DNA from: Salinigranum rubrum
Lineage (GTDB): Archaea > Halobacteriota > Halobacteria > Halobacteriales > Haloferacaceae
DNA: 64,000 nt
NCBI RefSeq assembly: GCF_002906575.1
Contig: NZ_CP026312.1
Location: forward strand, 1-64,000
Reading direction: 5' to 3'
In this document: one piece after another, positions 3,977-37,850 of the stretch
Layout of the letters: each line of letters opens with the position of its first letter
Position numbering within the stretch: position 1 is the first letter of the stretch
Notes under the pieces: model-generated
What the model was told of the DNA's origin: nothing
Seen by the model: only the letters and a program-made list of their open reading frames with translations
Databases searched by the model: none
Program-made: the position numbers and the translations under genes

Positions 3977-5131
3977 TTATGTGACGAGTGGGTCAATATC
4001 GTACTCGTCTTCAATCCGATACCAAGCTGCTCCTAGGGTATTTTTGCCCTCTATCAGGGTACTTCCGCCACAGCCAGAAACATTTCGGTTGAAACCCGCC
4101 CATTGCTGGATCATACCCGCCAGCCCGACTACCATTTCGCCGTTTCGTTCCAGCATTTGATATATTGGCCCGCCAGAATTCCCTTGAGCGTTGTTTGCAC
4201 TGGTTTCAATGCCGAACCCTTCTTGAGTCCCTGGTCCGCCCCAAGTTACACAATCTACATCTGGATCATTTGAGGAATCGGCCTCATTAAGATCCATCTC
4301 GAGCATTTTTCCATCTGAAATTCCAGTTGTTACACCAGCTTGCCGGATAGTATCATTATCGCTAATGAGCATTCCAATCCCACCATCTGAGAAGTGAGCG
4401 TACACCGGTTCGTAGTGCGCGTAAATGTCGGTTTCCTCCCGAATTCGATTGTCGTACGTTAGGTTGTTATTAGTAATCTCGACGAGGGCAATGTCCTCGG
4501 AGGGTTCTGTCCAAACAACTTCTCCCAGGGATTGACCTGCTTGGTCGACGGACAGTCCGACACCTTCGTCAGATCTCGTACAACCATCGAAGATATGTGC
4601 ACAGGTCAAAAGTCGAGTGTTATTTGATGGATCCTTCACGACTGCATTTGTTGTCCCGTATGTTGACCCGTATTCGATCTTCGCACCACCCGGTACACTA
4701 GAAAATTGATTGTCACTGTAACAGCTTGGCCCCGTCTCTCTGGGCTCTATCGTTTCGATTGGAATCTTATCTTTCTTTCGAGGAGGAGTACCTCTGTAGT
4801 TCTCTGAATCGACCTCAAGCCGAATCCGAAAGCCACGCTGTCCACCGAACTTTTTCGAGCCGCGGCCAAGAGAGACGGATTTAACACCGTTCTTCTCAAG
4901 CTCTGAGCTCCCGAGCCGGCGAGTTGCTCGCCGCGCATTTTGGAAATGCTGGTGCCACGACCGAGGAACAGTTCGTTTCTCAATTGGATCACCATTAGCG
5001 ATCAGAGTTACTATTTCCACAGTATCCTCTGACGCGCCCGCAACGTTAGATAACCCAACGAGCGAGAGTCCACTACCGATGGTCTTGACGAAATTTCTAC
5101 GAGTAGCCGGTTTCTTAGTTCGTTTTGTCAT
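3977..5131 (-). CDS. Tat-exported trypsin-like serine protease
   Basis: 384 residues. A Tat signal at residues 10-33 (TRRNFVKTIGSG, ending AGAS) has no lipobox Cys, so the protein is likely secreted. The chymotrypsin/trypsin fold triad is visible: His179 in LLTCAHIF, Asp213 in SEDIALVEI, Ser319 in GNSGGPIY. A long propeptide-like region (residues 34-140) precedes the catalytic domain and may be removed on activation. Several Cys in the mature part suggest disulfides. Base composition is AT-richer than the neighbouring genes. Substrate unknown. Upstream is an AT-rich intergenic region with a plausible promoter (5150-5215). Confidence 0.85.
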   Translation of the reverse strand: MTKRTKKPATRRNFVKTIGSGLSLVGLSNVAGASEDTVEIVTLIANGDPIEKRTVPRSWHQHFQNARRATRRLGSSELEKNGVKSVSLGRGSKKFGGQRGFRIRLEVDSENYRGTPPRKKDKIPIETIEPRETGPSCYSDNQFSSVPGGAKIEYGSTYGTTNAVVKDPSNNTRLLTCAHIFDGCTRSDEGVGLSVDQAGQSLGEVVWTEPSEDIALVEITNNNLTYDNRIREETDIYAHYEPVYAHFSDGGIGMLISDNDTIRQAGVTTGISDGKMLEMDLNEADSSNDPDVDCVTWGGPGTQEGFGIETSANNAQGNSGGPIYQMLERNGEMVVGLAGMIQQWAGFNRNVSGCGGSTLIEGKNTLGAAWYRIEDEYDIDPLVT

Positions 5132-5427
5132 TCGAACTCATTCTACATATAATCAGTATAATTGATAAATCTTTTCTAGCCGAATGTATTTTACACTTAT
5201 ATAATTTATATGGATAATCATCAAATTTGATCCTGTAGTTAATTAATCCCCTATGGACTGCCTTCGCCGTGCATCCACACGGCCTCTGCAACCTACCCAG
5301 AGTATCCGGCAAGGATACGGAACGTAGCGTCGTGGAGTTCCCGCTTCGCGACGTCGCGGACGCCCTCATCACGGAGTTGATGCTGCACATAAAAATTGTG
5401 CCGTGTTGAATAGACGCTGAGTCACGG
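5132..5427. other. Intergenic region with decayed sequence
   Basis: The first 100 bases are AT-rich and probably hold the promoter of the protease gene. At 5245-5395 the minus strand reads as a short protein-like stretch (QHQLRDEGVRDVAKRELHD) broken by stops, which looks like a gene remnant that I do not recognise. The segment at about 5400-5427 is the outer edge of the transposase remnant that follows. Confidence 0.4.
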
Positions 5428-5628
5428 TTAGAGCGTCTCACAGAGCAGTTCTATGTTCGCGATGGCGAACATGAGGCCGATTTCACGGAACTGTCGATAC
5501 CAGCCAAGCGATCGCACGGCATCGCTGAGCGAACGCTTCGTTGTCGAGTACGAGGTTTCGGCCATCCAGCGCTGAGAGTAGCCCTTTGCCCGGATGAGTG
5601 CGTTATGACCCACCGTGAGTGGCTTCGA
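5428..5628 (-). mobile_element. Remnant of IS5-type transposase (C-terminus)
   Basis: Only about the last 66 residues of a DDE transposase remain (with the WYRQFREI motif that resembles WFGQFREI of the intact IS5-type element at 53.2 kb). The N-terminal part with the first catalytic Asp residues is absent. No inverted-repeat partner was found, so the element is dead. Confidence 0.65.
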
Positions 5629-5838
5629 CCCACACTGTAAGATGAGCGTGTCGACGACGAGGCCACAGCCGTCGCAGGCGTGGTGGTCACGCTCGTCGGG
5701 ATTCGGTCGTGCTTGGATCGCACAGTCGACACAGATCGGATGCGTCACCCGCTCGTCTTTCCCCCACGTATGTGCCTCACCCATCTCTGAGCCGGGCAGT
5801 GCATCGCAGAACGCACAGCCGGAGAGCGTCCGTTGCAT
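5428..5838 (-). CDS. Zinc-ribbon protein fused to a transposase tail
   Basis: 136 residues with two unlike halves. Residues 1-60 carry CxxC pairs at Cys8/Cys11, Cys36/Cys39 and Cys55/Cys58, a small zinc-binding protein of unknown role. From about residue 71 (GHNALIRAKGYSQRW, then KRSL and WYRQFREI) the sequence is the C-terminal end of an IS5-type haloarchaeal transposase. The likely history is insertion of an IS into the 3' half of the zinc-ribbon gene, followed by deletion that left one open frame. The start (ATG at 5838) overlaps the stop of the next gene upstream, so it was the second gene of a coupled pair. The fused product is probably not a working transposase. Confidence 0.65.
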   Translation of the reverse strand: MQRTLSGCAFCDALPGSEMGEAHTWGKDERVTHPICVDCAIQARPNPDERDHHACDGCGLVVDTLILQCGSKPLTVGHNALIRAKGYSQRWMAETSYSTTKRSLSDAVRSLGWYRQFREIGLMFAIANIELLCETL

Positions 5839-6128
5839 CAGTCGCCCCCCGCGTTGACGTCGGTGGCGGCCTGCCAGCCGCGATGGAAGACGGCAAGCTG
5901 GGTGATCGAATCGAAGGCCTCGCCACTGGGCTCGTGAACGAAGACTCGCTGATCGACCACCGGCGTCACCCTGCCACCCTCGATGAGTTCGTTGACGAGC
6001 TGGTGGGCGGTCGTCTCGTCGACGTCCGCTGTTGTGACCTGGGCCGCATCCCGGTCCTGTGCAACGAGTTCGGTTTCGAACCGTTCGTAATCGGCCGTCG
6101 TATCGTCGATAGTGTCTGGATCAGTCAT
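5838..6128 (-). CDS. Small acidic protein, unknown
   Basis: 96 residues, strongly acidic, no recognised family. The C-terminal half (VFVHEPSGEAFDSITQLAVFHRGWQAA) has regular hydrophobic spacing and looks like a folded domain. Its stop overlaps the start of the zinc-ribbon gene (TGATG), which implies translational coupling. Upstream lies a cluster of three hairpins. Similar small proteins are common on haloarchaeal plasmids; I cannot assign a function. Confidence 0.6.
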   Translation of the reverse strand: MTDPDTIDDTTADYERFETELVAQDRDAAQVTTADVDETTAHQLVNELIEGGRVTPVVDQRVFVHEPSGEAFDSITQLAVFHRGWQAATDVNAGGD

Positions 6129-6166
6129 GGAACATCACGCTGGCATGCGCTTTTCGAGCGCGCCTC

Positions 6167-6229
6167 ACGCCTCCTGGCGTTAACGAGACGCTCGCGTCTC
6201 GTTCGCACACCAGAACGCAAACGTTCTGG
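6167..6229. repeat. Three tandem hairpins
   Basis: Within 63 bases: ACGCC/GGCGT around TCCT (6167-6180); AACGAGACGC/GCGTCTCGTT around a 2-base loop (6182-6203); CCAGAACG/CGTTCTGG around CAAA (6210-6229). All stems are perfect. They lie between divergent small genes, about 40-100 bases upstream of the minus-strand pair. Confidence 0.8.
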
Positions 6230-6373
6230 AGACGCTGATATACCTCTCCAGCGGGACGTACTGTCTCTGGTCGATGCTGCTGCGTCCAGTCGGCTGCTGG
6301 ACTGCTGGACTTCCAGATGAGGGCGCAGCCTGACCCGAACATCCTACTGGGTCGCATCCCCTAGCTGTACCTG

Positions 6374-6607
6374 ATGGATAATCCGAGGACACCGCTCGGA
6401 CCGAGTGAACGAGAGATCCTCGAACACCTCGAGGCGTACGTCGACGCGAGTCCCGACGACGAGTCGCTCACGCGTGAGACGGCGGTTACGTACCTGACGG
6501 AGCAGGGCTTCGGGCGTGTCGAAGCCCGCGACCGGATTGAGCAGCTGCTTCTCAAGGGCTATCTGTACGAGGTCGGTGAGGAACTCCGGATTCCGCCACG
6601 ATCCTGA
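6374..6607 (+). CDS. Small winged-helix-like protein
   Basis: 77 residues. The pattern GPSEREILEHLEAYVDASPDD, then TRETAVTYLTEQGF and RIEQLLLKGYLYEVGEEL, resembles a compact winged helix: three helices followed by a short beta wing. DNA binding is likely but unproven. It is a single gene transcribed away from the hairpin cluster. Start at ATG 6374; no better start is visible upstream. Confidence 0.6.
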   Translation: MDNPRTPLGPSEREILEHLEAYVDASPDDESLTRETAVTYLTEQGFGRVEARDRIEQLLLKGYLYEVGEELRIPPRS

Positions 6608-7768: not shown

Positions 7769-8320
7769 CTACCCTTCCTGGGGGAGCGTCGCGGACGACT
7801 CACCGGAGAGCGAGTCGGCATCCAACGTTGTCAGGGAATTCTTGAGGCTGATCGCCAGCTGGATGGCTTCCCGAACCTCGACGTTGTACGCCCACTCTTC
7901 GATGACGCCGAGTCGTTCACGGCGCTCGTCGCCAGCAAGGTCGTCGCGGCCGATGCTCTGGCGGAGTGCTGCAAGTGACTCGACCTCGTAGTCGTCTTTC
8001 CACGCATCGATTTCGTCCCCGATAGCGTTGAGTTCTCGAGTCAGTTCGTCGAGCGTGTGTTCTTCGGCGAGTTGACGAACCTCTCCGAGAAACTGCGTGA
8101 CGCTATCCGGCTTGTAGGCGTCCCCGTTCCTCGTCTCGACAACTTCGAGGTCGCCCTGTTCGACCATGCGGGTGAGGTATTTGACGGCTGTATCACGTGA
8201 GACGGCTGCTTCGTCGGCGATCCATCCTGCATTCTGGGGCTCGGTCCGCGTCAGTGCGACATGACGGACACGCTCTCCGGCGTCCATATTATCGGGCCAG
8301 ATGGGTTCTTTCTCACTCAT
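7769..8320 (-). CDS. Winged-helix protein (DUF7342-like), possible antitoxin
   Basis: 183 residues. Residues 10-70 form a winged helix (DMDAGERVRHVALTRTEPQNA-like start, then AGWIADEAAVSRDTAVKYL, MVEQGDLEVVETRNGDAY with a beta wing). The rest is helical and acidic, probably a dimerisation or partner-binding region. It precedes a DUF6516-like gene by 8 bases. In such pairs the DNA-binding member usually represses its own operon and neutralises the partner; this is inferred here. The upstream region 8330-8390 is AT-rich (AATAGTTTAGTAC) and likely holds the promoter. Confidence 0.65.
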   Translation of the reverse strand: MSEKEPIWPDNMDAGERVRHVALTRTEPQNAGWIADEAAVSRDTAVKYLTRMVEQGDLEVVETRNGDAYKPDSVTQFLGEVRQLAEEHTLDELTRELNAIGDEIDAWKDDYEVESLAALRQSIGRDDLAGDERRERLGVIEEWAYNVEVREAIQLAISLKNSLTTLDADSLSGESSATLPQEG

Positions 8321-8460: not shown

Positions 8461-9732
8461 TTACGCAGAGTCACGCCCAAACCACTGCTTCGTCCGACCC
8501 CACACAGACGTTGTCTCTGACTCATTACCGCTCTCCCCTGCAGTACCGGCTTGCTCGTCCTGGGACTGCTCAGTCTCTCGGTCACGGGCGGCTATTTCTT
8601 GTTCGAGCCGCTCGATCTCCGCCTCCAGTGTCTCGATCCGCTCGGTTTTGTGTTCGAGCGCCGCTTCGAGTTCGTCAACCCGCTCGGCCAACAGCCGATT
8701 CTTCTCGGTCAGATACGCACGACTGCGCTCTGAGTCGTCACGGCTGGTAGTGGCGATCGATTCGTCCGATGTGGCGTCAGAGCGCGGAGAATCCTCGCCA
8801 GTGTCTGGGTCGTAGAATTCCGAGGAGGTCGCAATCGCTCGTTCGATCGTCTTCTCCCCGTACGTCGACCCATCGGCGTAGTGGACCTCGTCCCATTTCT
8901 GGCGGTGGAGTCCCGACTGGCGGAACAGCTGGTCCATCTGTGTCGGGTCGCCGCCGGTCCAGAACGCCAGCAAACAGCACAGCGCCATATCGGCTTCCGA
9001 TTGGCTGTCGTAGCCGACCGTGTTCCCGTTCCAGAGCCGCTCGAACTTCTCGCCGTTCGACGCAGCTCGGGCTTTCTCGAGGAGATCCTCGTCGTCGAGG
9101 TCGACGTCGACGGCGGCTGTCTCGGTCGTCGGTGACTGGTCGTCAACGGTTTCCTGGTTCCCAGGTTCGGATGTCGCCTCACTCTCGGAGTCTTGGACGT
9201 ACTCGCGGTGGATCGCCACGAGCGCGTCTTGCCGACGTGCAACGCGAGTGGGCGTCCGCTCGACGTGGTCGCCGGTGACGGTGAAAAATCGTGCCGTGTC
9301 ATACAGTTCGATGCTCCCACGACGGTTCCGGCCCTCCGGGAGTTCGCCTTTGATGAGGACGTGATAGCCGGTGCCGGACGGCGACACCTCCGTATAGGAA
9401 TCGAGTCGCTCGATGATGTCCAGCGCTGCGTCGTCGACGTCGTCTGTCTCGGGGTCACGGCAGTCGTCCAGGTCGACACCGACGATGGGGCCGTCGTCGG
9501 TAAAGACGAAGCCGACGCCATCGGCCTGTTCCGTCTCGGTATACTCGAGCGCGGTCTCGAAGCTGGCCCACGTCTCGGGGTCCGTCGACGACGCGAACGC
9601 GCCGGTTCCCGGCGTTACCGGAATCTTCGTCGGTTTGCCGTCGCGGTCTTCTTCTCGCCAGCACACCCACTGCTCGCGCTCACGCAACTCCTCCGGAATG
9701 ATCTCTTGATTCTCGATGAGTCGACTATTCAT
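8461..9732 (-). CDS. NrS-1-like primase-polymerase, stand-alone
   Basis: 423 residues. The N-terminal 170 residues match the archaeo-eukaryotic primase fold of the phage NrS-1 polymerase type: metal-binding Asp87 and Asp89 in VGVDLDDC, His124 in SPSGTGYHVLIKG, and the IELYDTARFFTVTGDH strand. A helical domain follows (residues about 235-300, FWTGGDPTQMDQLFRQSGLH and YGEKTIERAI), as found after the primase core in this family. The C-terminus is a long coiled coil (about 340-400). The SF3 helicase domain that usually completes such proteins is absent here. It should make primers or copy the element. An iteron-like array lies directly upstream. Confidence 0.8.
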   Translation of the reverse strand: MNSRLIENQEIIPEELREREQWVCWREEDRDGKPTKIPVTPGTGAFASSTDPETWASFETALEYTETEQADGVGFVFTDDGPIVGVDLDDCRDPETDDVDDAALDIIERLDSYTEVSPSGTGYHVLIKGELPEGRNRRGSIELYDTARFFTVTGDHVERTPTRVARRQDALVAIHREYVQDSESEATSEPGNQETVDDQSPTTETAAVDVDLDDEDLLEKARAASNGEKFERLWNGNTVGYDSQSEADMALCCLLAFWTGGDPTQMDQLFRQSGLHRQKWDEVHYADGSTYGEKTIERAIATSSEFYDPDTGEDSPRSDATSDESIATTSRDDSERSRAYLTEKNRLLAERVDELEAALEHKTERIETLEAEIERLEQEIAARDRETEQSQDEQAGTAGESGNESETTSVWGRTKQWFGRDSA

Positions 9733-9837
9733 TGGCTCCTGTCACCTCGCATGGCTCTCACTCGATTCGAGCCCGGACAGAATGCACTCCCTTCCGCCTC
9801 CCGATCCAATCCCTTGGTCCCAACGGGGACCCCCCGT

Positions 9838-9850
9838 TCTATACTAGTTG
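9838..9850 (-). promoter_or_regulatory. Possible TATA box for the primase gene
   Basis: On the minus strand the sequence reads AACTAGTATAGAAC, a TATA-like element about 110 bases upstream of the primase start, with the first iteron (9856-9870) just upstream of it. The position suggests that an iteron-bound protein could control primase expression. Weak evidence: the match to the haloarchaeal TATA consensus is only fair and the leader would be long. Confidence 0.35.
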
Positions 9851-9855
9851 GTTTT

Positions 9856-10031
9856 TGGGTGGAACACCCACGACGAATGGCTGGAAACCGCCGGACGTGA
9901 ACGTGTTCCACCCATTTTGAGTGTAGCGTTGGTGTTACACCCATTCGGGGATTGGGTGGAACATGCTGCCGCCGGGTGATTTTCGAGGTGCCTGTTCGAT
10001 GGGATGGAGATGGTTCCGCTTGGGTGGAACA
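9856..10031. repeat. Iteron-like array, possible replication origin
   Basis: Five copies of TGGGTGGAACA occur in 176 bases: direct at 9856-9866, 9953-9963 and 10021-10031; inverted at 9904-9914; inverted with one mismatch at 9933-9943 (TGTTACACCCA). The first copy extends to a palindrome TGGGTG-GAA-CACCCA (9856-9870). The array sits in the gene-free gap between the primase and the end of the conjugation operon. Repeated binding sites next to a replication gene are typical of plasmid origins; an operator role for the primase gene is the alternative. Confidence 0.75.
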
Positions 10032-10081
10032 GCTCTCGAAGTTCCGAGATGGTACGGAGCATTGGCCTGTATACGTCCTGT

Positions 10082-13000
10082 TCATAACTGAGAATCCTCT
10101 CCAGAGCGGATGCGAACACCAGTGTAATGCCATACGGGGTCGCCTTCGATTCGCTTTTTCGTGGAGTCCACCTCGATGTGGGTGTTGAGCTTCCGTGTGA
10201 ACCAGCTCTTATTTAGCGGGTCGTCGATGCCATGTTCGTCGGCCCAATCGGTGTAGATGTCGAAGACGTCGTCTTTCGGCACGGCCTCATCCGGGTCTTC
10301 GACCAGATATTCGTCGACGAACGATTCGAACGACGGTGGAGACGCTTCATTCTGTTCTCCCCCAACCGTGTTATCCAACTGGGCAGTCTGGCCAGTTGGT
10401 TCTTCAGCAGCTGCTGCTTCGGTCGACGCTGGGTGGAGCGTGTCCTCAGTGAGTGCCGAGAGGGGCTGCTTCTCGCTGTCTTCATACACGACCGACTCCG
10501 CCTCATCGTGAAGGATGACGACGCCGTACGTTGAACGCTCGTAGTCTGGTATGGAAAGATCCTCTTCGGGGATGAATGGCTGCTTGATCCGCACCCACTC
10601 GGATTCGAATGCCGATTTCGACTCGTAGACATGGCGTTCTCCGTGTTCGTGAACAACGTATTCGTCGGCAGCGTGATCGTAGCTATAGACAGCCGGGACA
10701 CGATCCTTCGATAGCTTCCCAAGCGACGAAAGGCGGATGTGTTCCGTTCCCTTGCTATCACGGAGGACGATTTCGTCCCCATCAGGCTGCCAGATATTCT
10801 GGGTACTAGCTTCGTCGTCGCTCGCCGGTCGAACTGCTGTAACACCACTCTTCTCGGTCGCCCCGCCGTTGAACGTGACGTTCGAGTCAGTCGTATAGAA
10901 CCGAGTCTCGCCGTTCTGGAGTTCCCGAACTGGTGGTGTGAGGATCCCTTCGACTCGCTCAGCCCAGTCCGTTTCGTTCTTCCCAGATCGAACGACGAAC
11001 AACGGGATGTCTCCTGCCTCCTGAGCTTTCCGGAGATTCGTGAGTATCTTTGCCGGGTTCTCGGGAGTTGTCGTCTCGACCTCGATAGCGAATCGGTCAT
11101 CACACTCGGGATGCGTTGCCTTCGCGTCTGGCTTCTCGCTGCCATCCTGTGCGAGGATTGAGACGGTGAATCCGAGCGCCGCGAGTTCTTCTTCAATCTG
11201 GAGGAGCGCGCTGTCGTGCTCACTGCCCCCGGCGGCTTGGACGTTCCCGGTCTCGGGTGTCGCCACGTCTTCACCTGCCTCGGTCAGTCGGATAACGAGT
11301 TCGTCGGCGTCGATGTCGACGGTCGTATCGAGATAACGTGAGCGGTTGCGGATGTCCGCGAGTGCATCATACGACGGTGGCTCGGCGTCGACGTCATCGA
11401 AGAGCCGTCTGAGTTCGTCGTCGACCGCTTCGACGGCCACCCACCCGTTCTCGTCACGATTCCCTTCTCGAAGCTGGAGACTCCGAACCACCTTCGCAAT
11501 TGCAACGTCCAGCGCCTCGTCAGTGACGCTCAGAACCTCGCCTAGTTCTGTGGGGGTTCTCGTCTGTGGAGCGTCTGTCTCCTCACACACGCCGTAGTCG
11601 TCGTTGACGCGCTCGTGCATCACAGAGAGCGTTTCCTCGAACTGTGTTTCTTCGCGTGCAGTGAGCGGCTGTTCGCTCTCGGGATGACCCGGTGGAATCG
11701 GCAGCGGTTTGAGACTGAACGGGTACGGCCCGGTTTCACCAAACGCCGGACTCGGCAGACTGGCGATCCACTCGCCACGGGGCAACGCGCGAATTCGGTT
11801 GGCGAAATCAGCGGGGTCCATCTCCTCGTGGGCCATCGCTCGGGCCAGTTCGCGGTCGACGTTGATCTTCCCGATGAGTGAGCTCCCGATGTTGTTCAGA
11901 GCGTTCAGGTAGATCTTCCGGCCGCCTTCGGCCTCCATTTGCTCGGGGAACTGCATCGACAGTCCAACAGAGAGGCGGAAGCCCCGTCCCTTCTCGAGGA
12001 GGTCGTTCATGATGTCGGAGACCACGACCGACGCGGCCTCGTCGACGAGCAGGTTCACGACGTAGTCGTCCGGATACTGGGAGAGGTCCTGTTTGCGATC
12101 CTTGAGGGCAGCATCGAGATTGGTCAGAATCACGCCGGTCATGATCCGGGCCGCCTCGTCGCGGAGGTCGCCGAGGTCGAAGAGGATGACCGTGTTCTCG
12201 TCGAGGAGATCCCGGAAGTCGAACTGGTTCTCGGTGTTGTTGAAAATCTGCCGCAGGTGGGTGTCCTGTGAAATGTACGCGAGGCGGTTCCCGACACCAC
12301 CCATCACGTTCGCGAAGGTGTTCGAGTCCAACTGGAGCTGTCGTCGGATCGTCCGGGTAACTTCCTCGTCGCTCGACCGCGGGGCGTCACCGATGTTCGC
12401 GTTCGGCGGCCCGGCAGCCCAGAATTGATCGACGGCGTGTTCCAGTTGTCGGTGGGCGAAGTAGCCCGTCGACTCTCGGTACAGCCCGTTCTCCCGACCG
12501 TGTTCCTCGTCGAACAGCGCCTTGATGAGTGTCTTGATCAGCGTCGGGGCCACAGTCGCCCGCTCGTAACGGTCGCTCCCCATAACGAGCTTTAGAATCT
12601 CTTCGTAGTGGTCGGCCTTCCGTTGGACGGCGTCTTCGCGGCGACGGCCCGTTTGCATCGACGGTTCGAGATCGAAAAACGAGAAGCCAGGAAGCACGTC
12701 TGGCAGCGGGAAGTGGACGACGTTCTCCGCGAGGTCGGTCATTCCGAAGCGGCGTGCGTGAGCCCGCATGTAGTTCTGGGCCATGTCGTCGTTCTTCGGA
12801 TTGATGAGGATGGTCGGCCCCTCGGTATTCTCGTACAGCGACAGTATATCGTTGATCAGGGCTTTCGACTTCCCGGAGCCAGTCGTCCCAAACCGACCGT
12901 AGTGGGTGGGAAGGAGTCGAGGCGGGATATGTGTCGACTCGTCTTCGGCCTCGGCGTTGTCATCGAGAGCGTAGCCGATGGCCATCCCGTCACGGAACTC

Positions 13001-14401
13001 GGTCATGAGGTCCTGGTGGGGTCGTGGTAGTGGATTCCGGCTCTGCTGTTCTGCGCGCGTGCCCCGTGTCCCTTCGACGGTAAGCTGTTCCGAGGAAGGC
13101 ACGAGCACGAAGTGTGCGAGCTCTCGGCCACTCAGGACGAACTCCGGTCGTGTCTTCCCACGGCCAGTCGTGATCTCGCGGTCCAGCAGCCGCTGGAGCG
13201 CCGCTCGTGCGTTCTTTTCCTTCTTGGCCGCCCGAAAGCCACTAGCACGTAACCGTTCAGCCTCGACCTCGTAGTACGGCCCGTCGAGTGGGTCGAAGAC
13301 CGGAGCAAGTGACTGCATCCGCTCATCGAGGTCGTCACGCCCGGCGTCATCGTGCGGAACACCGATTGCCCGAATGTTCGCAGTGAACGACCGCGTGGCG
13401 TTTTTCGCCTCGATTGCTTCGACACGCTTTGCGACTGCGTCATTCAGCTGGTTTCTGTCTCGGCTCTCCGACCGCTCATCGAACTCGAAGAGCGACCCAA
13501 TCATCTCCTGGGCGAGAGTATCCCGTCCGTCGACGACGTCCTCCTTGCGAAGCTCGGCATCGGACTGCCAGCTCTCTCGCCGCTGGAAGACGACCTGAAA
13601 CGCGACGGGGTTGGTCGCCTCCACCAGGTGGTCGACGAGCGATGCGAGCGCACTCCCAGGCTGGTCGACGGCCGGAACTGCCTCCTCCGTAGTGTCGGCA
13701 GTGAACGGCGCAAGTGACGTCATCCAGTCTTTCTTCCGGGCGGCCGACCCCTGCCATCGCACGCCGAGAGGCGAGACGGTATCGGTCGCGGGACGGGCGA
13801 GTATCGTTCCCTCGGCGGTCACTGTTGGTTTTGCAAGCGTCGTGAGCGGCTCATCTACGGGAATCGCACTCGACGGCGCGAGTTCGAGGGCTGTATCCCC
13901 GACGTCAATGATGTGGTCAGCAGACGGATCGACCACTGCACCGCCATCCGCGAGCGAGTCGCTGTCGGCTGTCGCCTGAGTTTCGTTGTCCGAGGGCAGT
14001 TCGTATCGCTCGTCAGGACCGAACTCATGCTGGAGTTGACCCGCTTCATAGTGGTCGACGAACGCCTCGCGGTCGAATTCGACAGGTTGCACGAGACGTG
14101 ATGCGACGTCAATCTCGACGTGTTCGATGTCAAACGTCTCGGGATAGATCGACCGGAGACGCTTTGCAAGGGTATCGAGGTGTTTGTCGGCACCGTAGTA
14201 GAACTCGACTGGCTCGTCTGCACCCTCGCTAAGCGCGAGGAACTCGAACCGAGGGGGTGTCTCACTATGCAGTGGATTCAGTTTCTCCACAAGCCCCGTG
14301 GACGCTGTTGACGCCAGTTTGTGGAGACTCTCCAGTACCTGCGGAATGCCCTCCGGATCGAGCCGTTCGGATGTTGGCGTGACTCGGAGATACTCACGCA
14401 T
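10082..14401 (-). CDS. Coupling-type conjugation ATPase with extra C-terminal domains
   Basis: 1,439 residues from the ATG at 14401; a longer open frame exists, but this start overlaps the upstream stop (ATGCGTGA) and begins the acidic protein. An N-terminal region of about 450 residues precedes a HerA/VirD4/TraG-type motor: Walker A GTTGSGKS near residue 505, Walker B NLLVDEA near 784. After the motor come a nuclease-like segment near residue 1,100 (FAIEVETTTPENPAKIL, with an EVE motif) and, at 1,360-1,430, a winged helix like the C-terminal domain of D5/P4-type primases (VPKDDVFDIYTDWADEHGI, then VWHYTGVRI). It probably couples DNA processing to the transfer channel. The domain calls beyond the motor are my reading and need a profile search. 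Confidence 0.8.
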   Translation of the reverse strand: MREYLRVTPTSERLDPEGIPQVLESLHKLASTASTGLVEKLNPLHSETPPRFEFLALSEGADEPVEFYYGADKHLDTLAKRLRSIYPETFDIEHVEIDVASRLVQPVEFDREAFVDHYEAGQLQHEFGPDERYELPSDNETQATADSDSLADGGAVVDPSADHIIDVGDTALELAPSSAIPVDEPLTTLAKPTVTAEGTILARPATDTVSPLGVRWQGSAARKKDWMTSLAPFTADTTEEAVPAVDQPGSALASLVDHLVEATNPVAFQVVFQRRESWQSDAELRKEDVVDGRDTLAQEMIGSLFEFDERSESRDRNQLNDAVAKRVEAIEAKNATRSFTANIRAIGVPHDDAGRDDLDERMQSLAPVFDPLDGPYYEVEAERLRASGFRAAKKEKNARAALQRLLDREITTGRGKTRPEFVLSGRELAHFVLVPSSEQLTVEGTRGTRAEQQSRNPLPRPHQDLMTEFRDGMAIGYALDDNAEAEDESTHIPPRLLPTHYGRFGTTGSGKSKALINDILSLYENTEGPTILINPKNDDMAQNYMRAHARRFGMTDLAENVVHFPLPDVLPGFSFFDLEPSMQTGRRREDAVQRKADHYEEILKLVMGSDRYERATVAPTLIKTLIKALFDEEHGRENGLYRESTGYFAHRQLEHAVDQFWAAGPPNANIGDAPRSSDEEVTRTIRRQLQLDSNTFANVMGGVGNRLAYISQDTHLRQIFNNTENQFDFRDLLDENTVILFDLGDLRDEAARIMTGVILTNLDAALKDRKQDLSQYPDDYVVNLLVDEAASVVVSDIMNDLLEKGRGFRLSVGLSMQFPEQMEAEGGRKIYLNALNNIGSSLIGKINVDRELARAMAHEEMDPADFANRIRALPRGEWIASLPSPAFGETGPYPFSLKPLPIPPGHPESEQPLTAREETQFEETLSVMHERVNDDYGVCEETDAPQTRTPTELGEVLSVTDEALDVAIAKVVRSLQLREGNRDENGWVAVEAVDDELRRLFDDVDAEPPSYDALADIRNRSRYLDTTVDIDADELVIRLTEAGEDVATPETGNVQAAGGSEHDSALLQIEEELAALGFTVSILAQDGSEKPDAKATHPECDDRFAIEVETTTPENPAKILTNLRKAQEAGDIPLFVVRSGKNETDWAERVEGILTPPVRELQNGETRFYTTDSNVTFNGGATEKSGVTAVRPASDDEASTQNIWQPDGDEIVLRDSKGTEHIRLSSLGKLSKDRVPAVYSYDHAADEYVVHEHGERHVYESKSAFESEWVRIKQPFIPEEDLSIPDYERSTYGVVILHDEAESVVYEDSEKQPLSALTEDTLHPASTEAAAAEEPTGQTAQLDNTVGGEQNEASPPSFESFVDEYLVEDPDEAVPKDDVFDIYTDWADEHGIDDPLNKSWFTRKLNTHIEVDSTKKRIEGDPVWHYTGVRIRSGEDSQL

Positions 14402-16601
14402 CGTCCTCCCCCTCCATCGCCCCGCCATCAGGTTTCGCAGAGGCGGGTTCGGATTCTTTCGACTGTCCGTTCGTGGCCTGCTGTTCCAGCTCTTCACGGA
14501 ACTGCTGTACGTCCGTATCGACTGCCTCCTCGCCAGCGCCGGGGAGTGAAGACCGCCGCTGCTCAGTCGGTTCGAAGTCGATGACTTGCTTCTCCTTGGG
14601 CATTGCTTTGACCTGGATCCCCCGCCACTCGCCGTCGACGCCGACGAGTGCCTCCGAGAACCCGGCGTCCTCGTTTCCGGGGACGGCATCCTGAACGAAT
14701 CGCATCTGCGCGTAGTTCAGCCCAAACTCGTTCGCCCACTGTTCGTCCATTCCGTCCAGCTGATGGAACTGCTTGACCGCACACTGGTCGAGAATCGCTT
14801 CGGACTCGGGGTGCTCGAAGAATTCGTCGACGGTCTGGGTGACCAGCCGGATCGAGAGATCGTGGTGGCGGTGATGTCGGAACACTGTTTCGAGGAACGC
14901 CAGACTCGCGGCGTCCTGCATGATGTACCGGGCCTCGTCGATGACGAACACGACCTCCTTGTCAGTCTCCTTCGCCCGCTCGTACACGAGCGATATGAGC
15001 AACTGCATCGTCAGCGCCGTGCTGCTGTCGACGCTGCCCTCCTGCTGTGCAAGGTCGAGGTAGATGACCTTCTCGTCACGGATGTCGAACTCCGAGGACT
15101 TCCCGAGATTAGCGTGACGACCCTCCTCTTCGAAGGGGCGAAGCTGGTCGAGATGCCACGTCGCGTCTTCGCGGATCTTCCCAGCCTCTTCGTCGGACCG
15201 AACCACGAACGACTCTGGGTCGTCGACCATGTCCTCGAAGACGTCCATCATGTCTCGGATGGTCGGACTGGGATTGCTGTGCGTCGAGATATCGTCGGTG
15301 ATGTCGTTGCGCTTGTAGGCGCGCTTGAGGCCGAGTTCGAGCGTTGTCCGGCGGTCACCGAGCGAGATACCACGCAGTGCGAAGAAGTTCGTCAGGAAGC
15401 TCATGGCGTCGTCGAGCTTCTCGTTGAACGGGCTCGCGTCCTCGCCCATCGCTCGCTGGACGTGGTCGGGCGTCTGGCGGATCTCCAGGGGATTCAGCCC
15501 GAGTGTCCCACCGACGGTGATGCGTTTCGCTCCGAGTGCTTCGGAGACGCCTGCCCAGTTGTTGAGCGGTTCGAGAATGATGCCGATGCGGTCCTTACTC
15601 TGCTCGATAGAGCGGATGAAGTTCTGCTTCGAGCCGAACGACTTCCCAGACCCAGTATCGCCGACGGTGAACATCGCATACCCGTTGTCACGGGCGAACG
15701 GGTCGATGACGACGGGACTCTGGTTGTCCTTGTGGATTCCGAACTCGACTCCGCCCTCTTCGAGGATGGTCGCGTTATGCGGCGACGAAAGGAGTGCGCC
15801 AACGGCTCCACCGAGGGCGATTGACTCGCGCCCGAATACGTTGTCTCCGATGGGAGCAGCCGACTGCAGCGCGAGGTCCTGCCGACAGATCGCGGTCTTC
15901 GGCGTGAGGTTTGCTGGGTCGTCGCGGAGGGCGCTCTTGACCTTCTGGACTGAGTCCCTGAGGCCGTCCTTGTCGTCGGCGCGGACCGTGACGAACATCC
16001 CCTGGTCGAAGACGTTCGCGCCACTCTCGACGGCCTTGTACGTCGCAGCGGCTTCGTTTGCCCGCTCTTGGAGGTACGCACTGCGGACACTCTGTTCCAG
16101 ATCCGCGTCAACCTGGAGGTCGTCAGCGATGTCCTGCAGTTCGTTCCGTGCCCGCTGCTGGTTCTTCGGGGTGATGTGCGCTGTGAGGCCGAACTCGACG
16201 TCGGTAAGCTCGAAGAGGTCGCTCAGATAGCCGTCGTTCGGGTAGTCGGCGTAGTCAGCGATGTACAGCGTCGTCGTCCACTGCTCACCAACCCGAGCGG
16301 CTCGTGTCTCCCACTCGATGGCTGCCGGCGCGGTCACCGTCTTGTGAGACTCGGAGATGTCGTCGAGGAGCTGTCCCTCCGCTTGACCCGCTTCGAGCGT
16401 CTCCTCGTCGAGGACGTCCGAAAAGTCCACTTCGGGTTCGTCGTCGGCGGTGTGGCGGTCCCAGAGGAGTTTTCCGACGACTCCGAGGACCACGACCAAC
16501 AGGAGGTAACTCGCCGCACCTTCGGGCGACGTTGGATTCAGTAGCCACTCTGTGAGCTGGGTGAGGGGCCCGCCACCCGCCTGCAGGACGACGCTATGCA
16601 T
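14394..16601 (-). CDS. VirB4-like conjugation ATPase
   Basis: 735 residues. The start ATG at 16601 is preceded by GGAGG at a good distance and overlaps the stop of the gene before it; the longer frame upstream is not used. One membrane segment lies near the N-terminus (YLLLVVVLGVVGKLLW), then a VirB4/TraC N-terminal domain, then the motor with Walker A (VGDTGSGKSFG, near residue 317) and Walker B (VVFVIDEARYIM, near 552). VirB4 ATPases power assembly and transport of type IV secretion systems at the inner face of the membrane. Overlaps on both sides show tight translational coupling within the operon. Confidence 0.9.
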   Translation of the reverse strand: MHSVVLQAGGGPLTQLTEWLLNPTSPEGAASYLLLVVVLGVVGKLLWDRHTADDEPEVDFSDVLDEETLEAGQAEGQLLDDISESHKTVTAPAAIEWETRAARVGEQWTTTLYIADYADYPNDGYLSDLFELTDVEFGLTAHITPKNQQRARNELQDIADDLQVDADLEQSVRSAYLQERANEAAATYKAVESGANVFDQGMFVTVRADDKDGLRDSVQKVKSALRDDPANLTPKTAICRQDLALQSAAPIGDNVFGRESIALGGAVGALLSSPHNATILEEGGVEFGIHKDNQSPVVIDPFARDNGYAMFTVGDTGSGKSFGSKQNFIRSIEQSKDRIGIILEPLNNWAGVSEALGAKRITVGGTLGLNPLEIRQTPDHVQRAMGEDASPFNEKLDDAMSFLTNFFALRGISLGDRRTTLELGLKRAYKRNDITDDISTHSNPSPTIRDMMDVFEDMVDDPESFVVRSDEEAGKIREDATWHLDQLRPFEEEGRHANLGKSSEFDIRDEKVIYLDLAQQEGSVDSSTALTMQLLISLVYERAKETDKEVVFVIDEARYIMQDAASLAFLETVFRHHRHHDLSIRLVTQTVDEFFEHPESEAILDQCAVKQFHQLDGMDEQWANEFGLNYAQMRFVQDAVPGNEDAGFSEALVGVDGEWRGIQVKAMPKEKQVIDFEPTEQRRSSLPGAGEEAVDTDVQQFREELEQQATNGQSKESEPASAKPDGGAMEGEDDA

Positions 16602-17715
16602 TGGTCTCATCCTCCCGGCGCGAGTGGCCGATGATCGGTTGCTCGCGAACAACACGCTCTGCTTCGTCGTAGTCGTGCTCTCTCCCGTTCCAGAAGTCCA
16701 TGTTCAGGACGAACAGTTCGACCGTACAGAGCCGACGAGCAGACCAGCCGGACGCCTGCTGGATGAACTCGGCGCGAACATCGTTGACGCGGCTGTCCAG
16801 CTTCTCGAACATCTGGGCGCGGCGCTCGACATCGGTGAGGTTCTCACGGCGGGTGACGAACGGGTTGAACAGGAACCCGATGACGGGGAACTGCGTCAGC
16901 TTCTCGGCCGGTGTCCCCTCGTCCCGGAATCGGTCGTAGACTTCGAGTGGCGTGACCTCGACGCCGATGTAGTAGCGCACCTGCTGGATACCCCGGTCGC
17001 GCATCTCCTTCGGACGCGTCTCGCGGTACTCCTCGAGTAGTTCGCGAAAGATCGGATTCGCCTTGACGTCCTCGTCGGTGAGGCGGTCTTCGATGTTCTC
17101 CGTGATTTGTTCCACCGGAAATGATCGGGTTGTGGCGTGGAGTTTGAGCTTCGAGTCGAGTTCCTTGTTAGCAAATTCTTCTCCGGCGTCCTGGAGTTGC
17201 GCCCAGTCGTCGGACATCGCGAAGTCCATGTTTGCCGGGTCGATCTCGATGAACGCCTCCATCGCGCCATCCTCGCGTTGGATGGCACCAGCGCCGGGCC
17301 ACGCTCGCTTGACGTTCGTGAGGTCCTGCGTTCGTTCGTCGGGCTTGAATGGCGTGTAGTTCGCGAGGCCGCCCTCGTTCCGCGCTGTCTCGTTCGTGCT
17401 GCTGTCGGCCTCGTCGGGCGCACTGAACGTCATCTGGGGGCGTTTGAAGTAGCGATAGACGTCTTTCGTCCACGTCCAGGCGTTCAGATGGGTCGGGGAG
17501 ACATAGATGACGGCGACGCCAAAGCCGAGCCCGCCAGCGATGAACGGGAGGGCAAGCGACTCGATCCCGGTGAGGCCAGCGATGAACAGGCCGATGATCG
17601 GGAAGGCGATGAGCACGCCGACGTCTCCCTCCTCGATGTTGAGGTAGGGAATGCGACTCTCTTCGCCGAACTGGTCCATGATGCGCCGTGCGGCTGCGTC
17701 TTGATCTGCTGACAT
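16594..17715 (-). CDS. PrgI/VirB3-like membrane protein of T4SS
   Basis: 373 residues. Two adjacent membrane segments near the N-terminus (VGVLIAFPIIGLFIAGLTG and LALPFIAGGLGFGVAVIYV) are followed by a large cytosolic part of about 280 residues without cysteine. The layout, and its place immediately before a VirB4-like ATPase, fit the PrgI/VirB3 class, here extended by a long soluble domain as in the SCO6880-type proteins of Gram-positive systems. It probably ties the ATPase to the membrane channel. The start at 17715 is 2 bases after the previous gene. Class assignment is mainly from topology and context. Confidence 0.7.
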   Translation of the reverse strand: MSADQDAAARRIMDQFGEESRIPYLNIEEGDVGVLIAFPIIGLFIAGLTGIESLALPFIAGGLGFGVAVIYVSPTHLNAWTWTKDVYRYFKRPQMTFSAPDEADSSTNETARNEGGLANYTPFKPDERTQDLTNVKRAWPGAGAIQREDGAMEAFIEIDPANMDFAMSDDWAQLQDAGEEFANKELDSKLKLHATTRSFPVEQITENIEDRLTDEDVKANPIFRELLEEYRETRPKEMRDRGIQQVRYYIGVEVTPLEVYDRFRDEGTPAEKLTQFPVIGFLFNPFVTRRENLTDVERRAQMFEKLDSRVNDVRAEFIQQASGWSARRLCTVELFVLNMDFWNGREHDYDEAERVVREQPIIGHSRREDETNA

Positions 17716-17717
17716 TG

Positions 17718-18833
17718 TTAGTGGATTCCTCGATCAAACTCCATCCCGCGTTCGTCACTCGTCGCATCCGCAGTGGCTCCGCTCGGATCGTTCTCGGTTC
17801 GGCGGTACGATGGAGTTCCACCATTCTCGCTACCGTGGCCTCCACGAGCAGCTGCTTTCTGGGCGACGGCATGACCAGCAGCGGCTTTTGGCCCCCACCG
17901 CGCTGCGGTCGTCGCGACGCCAGCGCCGCCGACGTACGCGCCAGCAGCGACACCGCCAATAAGGGCCGCCCCTTTCGTTGCTCCGCCCACGACCTTGGCG
18001 GTCAGTGGAGTTGCGTACTTGAACGTCTTCCACGTGAGGTAAAGCGCAATCAGGGGTAGCGACGCAGCTACTAGGTACTTCAGAAATGAGCTGTTAGGGG
18101 TGAGAGCTCCTTCCGAGTAGAGTAGATCATATCCTTTGAACACGACTGCTGCTGGAAGCGGAAGAACTGCGAGAGGCACAAATCGTTTGGAAAACCCCAT
18201 AGCGATGTCAGAAAGAACCGGGATATTTCCGTAAGCGAGGGCGAACGCAATCGGCATCCCATACACATAGACGTAGAGGAGAACCTCTCGAATGTAGTAC
18301 AGTGCTTCAAGCGCCCACATCGAGAGACCACCTATAACAGCAAACAGAAGGCTGAGTCCCGGGTTAGTCAACGACTCCTTGAGGAAGTTTAGCATCGCAT
18401 CACCCAGCGAGCTTAGACTCGGCATGAGGGCGATTGTGAATCCGTCAACCAAGTAGAGCCCCAGAACGCTCATCCAGTACCAACTGATGATGAGAAACGC
18501 TCCAATCCACGCGGTCTTCTTTGTCCGTCTTGCCTCATATGCACTCCCGACATTGAAAATGCGAATTGTATGTCGACCTTGGACGGACATCACCAGAAGA
18601 AGCAGTGAAATCAGCATTATCTCACCACCGACCAAGGCATCGCGGATTGCTGGCCAGGCCCCGTTTGTTGGGGCACCGAAGACAAACGCTCCCTCTGTTT
18701 CAGGCGTAGGTGTTCCGAACATCTCCGCTGTGAGGGTCTCATAACCGGTGTTCAGCCCCTCCATGAAGAGGCTAATCACCCAATCGACGACATCTTTGAA
18801 TCCCTCTAAGACGACATCAATTAGGTCAACCAT
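17718..18833 (-). CDS. VirB6/TrbL-like multipass channel protein
   Basis: 371 residues with about six to seven membrane segments between residues 70 and 300 (for example MLISLLLLVMSV, WIGAFLIISWYWMSVLGLYLV, LLFAVIGGLSMWAL, YLVAASLPLIALYLTW) and a Gly/Ala-rich cytosolic tail. This is the VirB6/TrbL layout, the polytopic core of the inner-membrane channel of type IV secretion. The middle of the gene is clearly AT-richer than its ends (about 18,080-18,700), which may mark a recombined segment. It lies within the conjugation operon with 2-base spacing on each side. Confidence 0.75.
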   Translation of the reverse strand: MVDLIDVVLEGFKDVVDWVISLFMEGLNTGYETLTAEMFGTPTPETEGAFVFGAPTNGAWPAIRDALVGGEIMLISLLLLVMSVQGRHTIRIFNVGSAYEARRTKKTAWIGAFLIISWYWMSVLGLYLVDGFTIALMPSLSSLGDAMLNFLKESLTNPGLSLLFAVIGGLSMWALEALYYIREVLLYVYVYGMPIAFALAYGNIPVLSDIAMGFSKRFVPLAVLPLPAAVVFKGYDLLYSEGALTPNSSFLKYLVAASLPLIALYLTWKTFKYATPLTAKVVGGATKGAALIGGVAAGAYVGGAGVATTAARWGPKAAAGHAVAQKAAARGGHGSENGGTPSYRRTENDPSGATADATSDERGMEFDRGIH

Positions 18834-35180: not shown

Positions 35181-37850
35181 ATGAGTACGCGGAAAAGCCA
35201 CATCGACATCCAGGGGATGAGTTGCGCGAACTGCTCGCAAACCATCACTGACGCCGTCGAGTCCGTAGATGGCGTCTCGGAGGCGAACATCAATTTCGCG
35301 ACCGACGAGGGGAGTGTCGAGTACGACCCGGACAACGTTTCACTCGGCCAAATATTCGATACTATCGAGGACGCTGGCTACTCACCGGTCACGGATTCGG
35401 TGAGCATCGGTATCACGGACATGTCGTGTGCGAACTGCTCGGAGACGGTGCAGGACGCGCTCGAACGGACTCCCGGTGTCGTCACAGCGGACGTGAACTT
35501 CGCGACCGACGAGGCACAGGTCACGTACAACCCGGCCGAGGCGAGCCTCACGGACTTCTACGACGCTATCGAGGACGCTGGCTACTCACCCGTTCGCGAG
35601 GACGCCGAAACTGGAGATGGATCAGGAGGTGACGCGAGAGAGGCGGCCCGGCAGGAGGAGATCAGGCGACAGTTACGGCTGACGCTGTTCGGTGCGGCGC
35701 TCGCGGCCCCGATGCTGTTCTTCCTCGCCGAGAAGTTCCTGCTCGGTGGTGGCGTCCTCCCAGAAACGATTCTCGGGATCGAATTCGGCTGGGCAGAGTT
35801 CCTGCTGGCGACGCCCGTTCAGCTGGTACTCGGCTGGCCGTTCTACAAGAACTCCTACAAGGCGCTCGTGAAGAACGGTCGCGCCAACATGGACGTGCTG
35901 ATCGCGCTGGGCTCGACCACTGCGTACGTCTACTCCGTCGCAGTCTTGCTCGGCGTAATCGCCGGCGGGCTGTACTTCGACACGGCGGCGCTCATCCTCG
36001 TGTTCATCACGCTGGGCAACTACCTCGAAGCTCGCTCGAAGGGTCAGGCCGGCGAAGCGCTTCGGAAGCTCCTCGAAATGGAGGCCGAGACGGCCACTAT
36101 CGTCGACGAGGACGGCAACGAGGAGGAGATCCCGCTTGAGGACGTCGAGGTGGGCGACCGGATGAAGGTCCGACCCGGTGAGCAGATTCCGACTGACGGC
36201 GTCGTCGTCGACGGGCAGTCGGCTGTGGACGAGTCGATGGTGACCGGCGAGTCCGTCCCTGTCGAGAAGAGCGAGGGCGACGAGGTGGTCGGGTCGACTA
36301 TCAACGAGAACGGCGTGCTCGTCGTGGAGGCGACGAAGGTCGGCAAGGACACGGCGCTCCAGCAGATCGTTCAGACGGTCAAGGAAGCCCAGTCGCGCCA
36401 GCCCGACATCCAGAACCTCGCAGACCGCATCTCGGCGTACTTCGTGCCGGCAGTCATCGCGAACGCCGTTCTCTGGGGCGTCGTCTGGTATCTGTTCCCC
36501 GAAGTCCTCGTCGGAGTTGTCGACGCGCTTCCGCTTTGGAGCCTCGTTGCTGGCGGTCCCGTCGCTGCCGGCGGCGTATCGGTCTTCGAGTTCTCTATCA
36601 TCGTCTTCGCGTCGTCGGTGCTCATCGCCTGTCCCTGTGCGCTCGGACTCGCAACGCCGGCGGCGACGATGGTTGGAACGACTATCGGCGCACAGAACGG
36701 CGTCCTGTTCAAGGGCGGCGACATCCTCGAACGGGCGAAGGACGTCGACACGGTGGTCTTCGATAAGACGGGCACGCTCACGAAAGGCGAGATGGAGCTG
36801 ACCGACGTGGTCGTCTTCAACGGAGACGGCCAACCGGTTGCAGACGGTGGGGACCCTGCCGCCGATGGGGGCCAGCTAACTGCACAGGAGCGACTCAGCG
36901 AGGACGACGTGCTGCGGCTGGCAGCCACCGCCGAGAGCGGGAGCGAACATCCGCTCGCTCGCGCTATCGTCGACGGTGCCAGAGATCGTGGCATCGACGT
37001 GACCGACCCCGAAAGCTTCGAGAACGTCCCGGGCCACGGCATCAAAGCGACCGTCGGTAACAGTGAGGTGCTGGTCGGGAATCGGAAGCTGCTCCGGGAC
37101 AACGGGATCGACCCATCGCCCGCCCAGGAGACGATGGAACGCCTCGAGAACGAGGGGAAGACGGCGATGCTCGTCGCCTACGAGGATGAACTCGTGGGTG
37201 TGGTCGCCGATGCCGACACGGTCAAAGAAAGTGCGAAAGACGCCGTGAGCCAGCTGCAGGAACGCGGCGTCGACGTGATGATGATCACCGGCGACAACGA
37301 GCGGACCGCCCGCGCGGTCGCCGAGCAAGTCGGCATCGACCCCGAGAACGTCCGCGCGGAGGTCCTCCCCGAGGACAAGTCCGACGCGGTCGAGGCCATT
37401 CAGGACGAAGGCCGGAAGGCGATGATGGTCGGTGACGGCGTCAACGATGCGCCTGCGCTCGCCGTCGCGTACGTCGGCACGGCCATCGGCTCAGGGACGG
37501 ATGTCGCCATCGAGGCGGCGGACGTGACGCTGATGCGCGACGATCCGCTCGACGTGGTGAAAGCCATCCGTATCTCGGACGCCACGCTCGCGAAGATTAA
37601 GCAGAACCTCGTGTGGGCACTCGGCTACAACACCGCGATGATCCCGCTGGCGTCGCTGGGCCTGCTCCAGCCCGTGCTTGCGGCCGGCGCGATGGCGTTC
37701 TCCAGCGTGTCGGTGCTGTCGAACAGCCTGCTGTTCCGCCGGTACACCCCGATCACGACTACAAACTGCTCGGAAAACTCCGCTGAACGCCAAAGCCACT
37801 TGATCCATGTCATCTATTTCCCGCCGCACGGTGCACGCGTACCTCGTTGA
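35181..37850 (+). CDS. copA: CopA-type Cu(I) P1B-1 ATPase, C-terminus frameshifted
   Basis: 889 residues as read. Two HMA domains ([10 protein letters not shown] and [10 protein letters not shown], each MxCxxC), then eight membrane helices, [15 protein letters not shown] (the CPC copper site), [18 protein letters not shown] and [16 protein letters not shown]: a Cu(I) exporter of the CopA type. The last codons are odd: after FRRYTP the frame reads ITTTNCSEN and runs 44 bases into the next gene. Adding one base in the CCCC run at 37747-37750 restores [11 protein letters not shown] and a stop at 37784-37786, 20 bases before the next start. The pump core is intact. Confidence 0.93.

Follow-up and report, generated by a model that had tools for sequence, protein, structure and literature searches.

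A plasmid-specific repeat array beside a conjugation ATPase gene in Salinigranum rubrum as a candidate recognition site for DNA transfer

Five 11-bp repeats lie between a conjugation ATPase gene and a primase-like gene, at positions 9856-10031 of the window, the 64,000-nucleotide stretch that was analysed and that forms the first 64 kb of C4, a Salinigranum rubrum replicon of 118,877 bp. The array probably acts in cis as the site that the conjugation machinery of this plasmid recognizes, with a role similar to that of an oriT or clt locus. Across related plasmids, the repeat sequence covaries with only one part of the neighboring proteins, the C-terminal winged helix of the ATPase encoded immediately upstream. 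In the proposed mechanism, this hexameric TraG/TrwB/HerA-like ATPase would grip the repeats by its RFX/P4-type winged helix. Binding would load the type IV secretion system (T4SS) motor onto the plasmid that encodes it, rather than onto any other DNA, and would thereby select the plasmid for export. Two further shared elements, CR1 and CR2, would mark the remainder of the site, and the primase would make the complementary strand while the DNA is being transferred or afterwards. That the tail physically binds the array, that the motor loads there, that the site serves transfer, and that the primase plays this part are what we infer from the computed patterns, as is whether one strand or two would be moved.

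For the way in which archaeal plasmids choose the DNA to be transferred, the array and the ATPase tail are a candidate start site and a candidate reader. Although conjugative plasmids of archaea encode homologues of VirB4 and VirD4, no relaxase has been recognized in them (PMC9905601, PMC12857230). Of 137 plasmids that have this primase, 135 are typed as non-mobilizable, and a scan of the operon proteins gave no relaxase match and no nicking enzyme, a divergent nuclease being possible. It is perhaps an even call whether such relaxase-free choice of DNA is widespread in archaeal conjugation, with a coupling-type ATPase reading a plasmid-specific array through the winged helix of a viral primase-helicase, and with helix and array swapped as a specificity cassette among haloarchaeal plasmids. 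No description of this system was found in the openly accessible, published literature that was searched. If the proposal is true, the array would provide a DNA marker for transfer-competent haloarchaeal plasmids.

The array and its surroundings

Every gene in this region is encoded on the minus strand. They are, in order, those for a TrbL/VirB6-like protein (17718-18833), a conserved 373-aa conjugation-operon protein without a family match (16594-17715), a VirB4-like conjugation ATPase (14394-16655), and a TraG/TrwB/HerA-type conjugation ATPase (10082-14689), which is 1535 aa as an open reading frame and whose true start is probably further in. The array follows downstream of the ATPase stop codon and upstream of the start of the primase-like gene (8461-9732), whose product has an NrS-1 type helix-bundle domain and corresponds to the N-terminal half of the viral family phrog_1829. 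The winged helix of the ATPase, which is of the RFX, Pox_D5, and P4 origin-binding type and is the predicted repeat reader, is encoded at 10103-10330 on the same strand. Further along, the window encodes an OB-fold protein (1424-2320) that 33 of 80 relatives also have downstream of their primase gene, at a median identity of 77%, and that is possibly a single-strand-binding partner.

The repeat TGGGTGGAACA is present in four exact copies and one near copy, three of them direct and two inverted, which bears out the initial annotation. Repeat 1 (9856-9866, plus strand) is closest to the primase and is exact, as are repeat 2 (9904-9914, minus strand, inverted), repeat 4 (9953-9963, plus strand), and repeat 5 (10021-10031, plus strand), which is located 50 bp past the ATPase stop codon. 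Repeat 3 (9933-9943, minus strand, inverted) has one mismatch (TGGGTGTAACA), and the corresponding site is an exact copy in most relatives with the same repeat type. An inverted repeat, TGGGTGgaaCACCCA, spans repeat 1 (9856-9870) and reads TGGGTG-GAA-CACCCA; the earlier description of this copy as a full palindrome is thus correct for its 6-bp arms but not for its odd 3-nt center. Similarly, the 176 bases said to be gene-free are indeed so, although the actual gap between the genes is larger (9733-10081).

The array is a genuine feature. The exact 11-mer occurs four times in the 4,973,118-bp genome, all within the array, while a control search with the reversed pattern gave no matches. The intergenic region has a repeat score of 16, compared to a mean of 6.6 in dinucleotide shuffles, and none of 100 shuffles scored as high. 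The array contains no AT-rich stretch, its AT fraction being at most 0.50 in 50-bp steps.

Two additional elements are independent of repeat type. CR1 (9968-9983, minus strand) is positioned, in the direction towards the primase, a few bases before repeat 4; here it is AAAATCACCCGGCGGC, a diverged form, as read off the sequence, of the motif AAAnnCGCAnGACnG, which is found in 67 of 106 relatives and in approximately 1% of shuffles. CR2 (9820-9851, minus strand) is a 32-bp element, CCAACTAGTATAGAACGGGGGGTCCCCGTTGG, in which an inverted repeat, CCAAC-N22-GTTGG, encloses CTAGTATA. Its arms covary: all five positions are paired in 59 of 81 sequences, and the arm pairs (CCAAC/GTTGG in 49, CCGAC/GTCGG in 8, and ACGAC/GTCGT in 2) show compensatory changes between lineages. 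CR2 is a candidate promoter core, hairpin, or nick region.

Covariation of the repeats with the ATPase winged helix

Other haloarchaea yielded 80 relatives of the primase. About 25 of them have TGGGTGGAACA-type sites at the same positions nearly to the base; other relatives retain four to five similarly placed sites whose repeat sequence differs. These other types include TGTCCACGCA, TGTTACGGCAA, TGTTCAGGGCA, GGTCAGGGGA, and GGTTACGACAG, as well as TGTCCAGGCA, TGTCCAGGGTA, TGTCCAACCA, GTGTGACACCCAA, and more. The order of winged-helix ATPase, array, and primase is kept in more than 100 loci from many genera. Repeats are significant (p ≤ 0.01 relative to shuffles) in 64 of 79 non-redundant intergenic regions, and seven of the 79 have no significant repeats.

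Of 69 members, 66 match the Pox_D5 profile over the last ~80 residues of the ATPase, and 34 match RFX_DNA_binding there. The closest solved fold to the winged-helix model (pLDDT 81) is the RFX1 DNA-binding domain on its X-box (1dp7; Z 12.3, TM 0.88 on target); the model also matches RFX5 and the phage P4 origin-binding domain (1ka8; Z 9.6). Shared fold and sequence profile therefore both place the domain among the RFX, Pox_D5, and P4 winged helices. The ATPase also matches profiles of SXT_TraD and CedB, and also of DotL and FtsK, and its motor is most similar by fold to VirB4, TrwB, and HerA in a low-confidence model (pLDDT 69). Together, the profiles and this low-confidence fold model indicate a RecA-type motor of the VirD4/TrwB/HerA class.

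For comparisons between loci, repeat consensuses were derived automatically and 10 of 103 were removed by hand as weak or contaminated with CR1; loci without a measurable primase or with too little ATPase sequence were also dropped from the covariation test. Among the 66 non-redundant loci, repeat distance is correlated with winged-helix distance when the ATPase body and primase are controlled for (partial r 0.453, p 0.001), and neither the body (0.012) nor the primase (0.008) adds anything significant. In sliding windows, the partial correlation with the repeats reaches 0.28 over the last 110 and 0.38 over the last 80 ATPase residues, whereas it does not exceed 0.19 in other parts of the ATPase or 0.15 in the primase. 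When the VirB4-like and 373-aa proteins are added, the winged helix is the sole significant term (r 0.42, p 0.002, n 29). The primase, the VirB4-like protein, and the 373-aa protein were each considered as readers and set aside, as none covaries with the repeats. A DUF7342 winged-helix regulator (7769-8320) was likewise rejected, being present in just 10 of 80 loci.

Individual pairs of plasmids illustrate this pattern. For instance, loci L013 and L044 are 87% identical in the ATPase body and 94% in the primase but only 38% in the winged helix, and their repeats differ. Similarly, L007 and L012 share 88% of the body and 83% of the primase but 38% of the winged helix, and again their repeats differ. 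Judged from such pairs, winged helix and array swap together between plasmids as a block. The statistical link can be due in part to physical neighborhood, since the winged-helix codons adjoin the array; however, the N-terminus of the primase, which flanks the array on its opposite side, is nearly free of signal, which argues against linkage alone. Recognition of the repeats by the winged helix is thus a well-supported prediction, and many natural specificity pairs are available for binding, swap, and mating tests.

The array is also found apart from the primase. Loci L199 and L177 have the winged helix, array, and CR2 with no primase adjacent; the sole primase in the genome of L199 is on another contig, and none was found in the genome of L177. 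Conversely, the array is mostly absent from primases that are not flanked by a winged-helix ATPase, with the exception of L051, where an array is present with no recognizable ATPase gene beside it. In L026, an insertion with a TnpB-like gene (4594-6496, identified by eye) parts the array and CR2 from the primase, and the array remains on the ATPase side. No array was found within 2.9 kb downstream of the ATPases of a divergent winged-helix clade (L163, L165-L171, and L174). In these loci, the winged-helix ATPase is followed directly by a gene whose start is, by eye, similar to that of a PriS-like primase. Paralogous conjugation ATPases without the winged helix could be read at two of seven loci (L304 and L307), neither with an array, a sample too small to carry weight. 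There too the ATPase is directly followed by a gene that is primase-like by eye, and pairing of a conjugation ATPase with some primase may be general.

Replication, regulation, and partition as alternative roles

The initial annotation proposed a primase-type replication origin, on the grounds that the window contains no Orc1/Cdc6 gene. This is literally true, but the same replicon has a full-length Orc1/Cdc6 frame outside the window (C4:73315-74514). Adjacent to it, at approximately 74.5-75.4 kb of C4, a repeat of 24-27 bp, of the AATTGGTGAAATGGTGGTGGGTGT type, occurs at least five times and in both orientations, with an AT-rich stretch between the copies. Orc1/Cdc6 together with repeats that flank an AT-rich stretch is the expected layout of a haloarchaeal Orc1/ORB origin, and this region (C4:73315-75400) is likely the replication origin of C4. 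Additionally, Orc1/Cdc6 is present in all 12 of the complete plasmids with the ATPase-array-primase module that were examined for it. The argument from its absence therefore fails, and the proposal that the array is the primase-type origin of the replicon is further weakened by repeats that do not track the primase, by arrays without a neighboring primase, and by the lack of an AT-rich stretch. In contrast, the iteron-like character noted earlier is well founded: the array is conserved, of a protein-binding type, fixed in its spacing, and located beside a primase gene, and the domain that tracks it shares the fold of the phage P4 origin-binding domain.

A narrower reading, in which the repeats would serve as iterons for an origin that is secondary or induced and the ATPase and primase form a split primase-helicase of the P4 alpha or pRN1 type, is doubtful, although it has several points in its favor. 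The primase and winged helix match the two ends of phrog_1829, and the winged helix has the fold with which P4 alpha binds its origin repeats (PMC4234260). The detrended cumulative GC skew of C4 also reaches its lowest value at the array, at position 9844 (block shuffle, p 0.002); however, a minimum near the array was found in just three of seven plasmids, and the skew step at the array is inconsistent across 47 loci. An initiator that reads the repeats was not found, the primase showing no tracking once the winged helix is accounted for and Orc1/Cdc6 being present with ORB-like repeats elsewhere on C4, and no AT-rich unwinding element adjoins the repeats. Same-type arrays moreover coexist within a single strain (L033 with L038, and L055 with L060), which also argues against an origin.

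Slightly less improbable, but still unlikely as the main role, is a promoter operator, where the ATPase tail or another protein would bind the repeats to regulate the primase operon from a promoter in CR2. About 115 bp ahead of the primase start, CR2 contains CCAACTAGTATAGA, which is similar to a TATA-type promoter core, the nearest repeat abuts CR2, the CR2 arms form a conserved inverted repeat, and autoregulation through a DNA-binding tail would yield the same covariation. However, four to five sites at fixed spacing over ~180 bp exceed the needs of a simple operator, L177 and L199 retain the array and CR2 without an adjacent primase, and candidate regulators downstream are infrequent (DUF7342, for example, in 10 of 80 loci). 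Since the primase may be transcribed from CR2, the array may additionally act as an operator, a second function compatible with a role in transfer. Finally, partition systems too can have repeat arrays beside an ATPase gene. A partition site, or another DNA-handling site unrelated to transfer, is nevertheless very improbable here, given that the covarying ATPase ends a VirB4/VirB6 operon and resembles TrwB, VirB4, and HerA, not ParA. Recognition by the conjugation ATPase at the start of transfer is accordingly the reading that we prefer.

Relation to known systems and origin of the module

The closest functional parallel to the preferred reading is the TraB/clt system of Streptomyces plasmids such as pSVH1 and pWTY27. 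As here, a DNA-translocating ATPase carries a C-terminal winged helix, and short repeats that vary between plasmids form a site that abuts the 3' end of a gene, with no recognized relaxase (PMC3583192). In TraB, helix 3 of the winged helix binds 8-bp repeats in clt, and the clt of pWTY27 covers the traA 3' end and the adjacent 159 bp (PMC3583192). TraB, however, is FtsK-like and acts with no T4SS, whereas the ATPase here is TrwB/HerA-like and is preceded by VirB4- and VirB6-like genes in one operon. Its winged helix is also of the RFX/P4 type, a primase, CR1, and CR2 follow, and the host is archaeal. The locus has the repeats beside a translocating-ATPase gene and the C-terminal winged helix of that system but not its FtsK/SpoIIIE-type motor; because of this different motor class within a T4SS, it would at most work like clt/TraB and is not a member of that family.

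Classical oriT sites of MOB systems are similarly cis-acting and associated with a conjugation operon that encodes a coupling protein, but no relaxase is recognized here and the covarying partner is the coupling-type ATPase itself. Haloarchaeal Orc1/Cdc6-ORB origins also have repeat arrays, and a likely one is on the same replicon; that locus differs in being ~64 kb away, in its 24-27 bp repeats, and in its AT-rich stretch. The P4 repeat, which we take to be GGTGAACA, resembles GGTGGAACA of the array, as a lead only. Phage P4 alpha has in common with the module a winged-helix fold (Z 9.6) that binds repeats near primase functions (PMC4234260), although P4 alpha acts in replication and combines primase and helicase in a single chain, while the domain here belongs to a conjugation ATPase, on a replicon that has ORB-like repeats beside its Orc1/Cdc6 gene. 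RFX proteins recognize X-box half-sites such as GTTACC/GTTGCC (PMC2375033), which resemble the type C repeat GTTACGGCAA, but they are eukaryotic transcription factors with ~16% sequence identity to the winged helix here.

Within phrog_1829, a primase-helicase family of 772 positions, the match to the primase covers positions 4-341 and that to the winged helix 686-754, and the chromosome of this organism encodes intact primase-helicase-winged helix proteins. The module thus has the appearance of a split primase-helicase, in which the primase would have become its own gene and the winged helix would have moved onto the conjugation motor, if this was the direction of change. A conjugation motor would then have taken over the origin-binding domain of a viral replication protein. 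Viral contigs yielded no primase relative with the patterns used. Full-length viral-type primase-helicases with the same winged helix, on chromosome C1 and in relatives, have no adjoining repeat array, and thus an ancestral link to iterons could not be shown. One such chromosomal protein, a 926-aa frame, is encoded at approximately 23000-26000 of C1 (G000:C1; L105, L269). Elsewhere in the window, the plasmid carries as cargo a heavy-metal P-type ATPase with two HMA domains (35181-37850).
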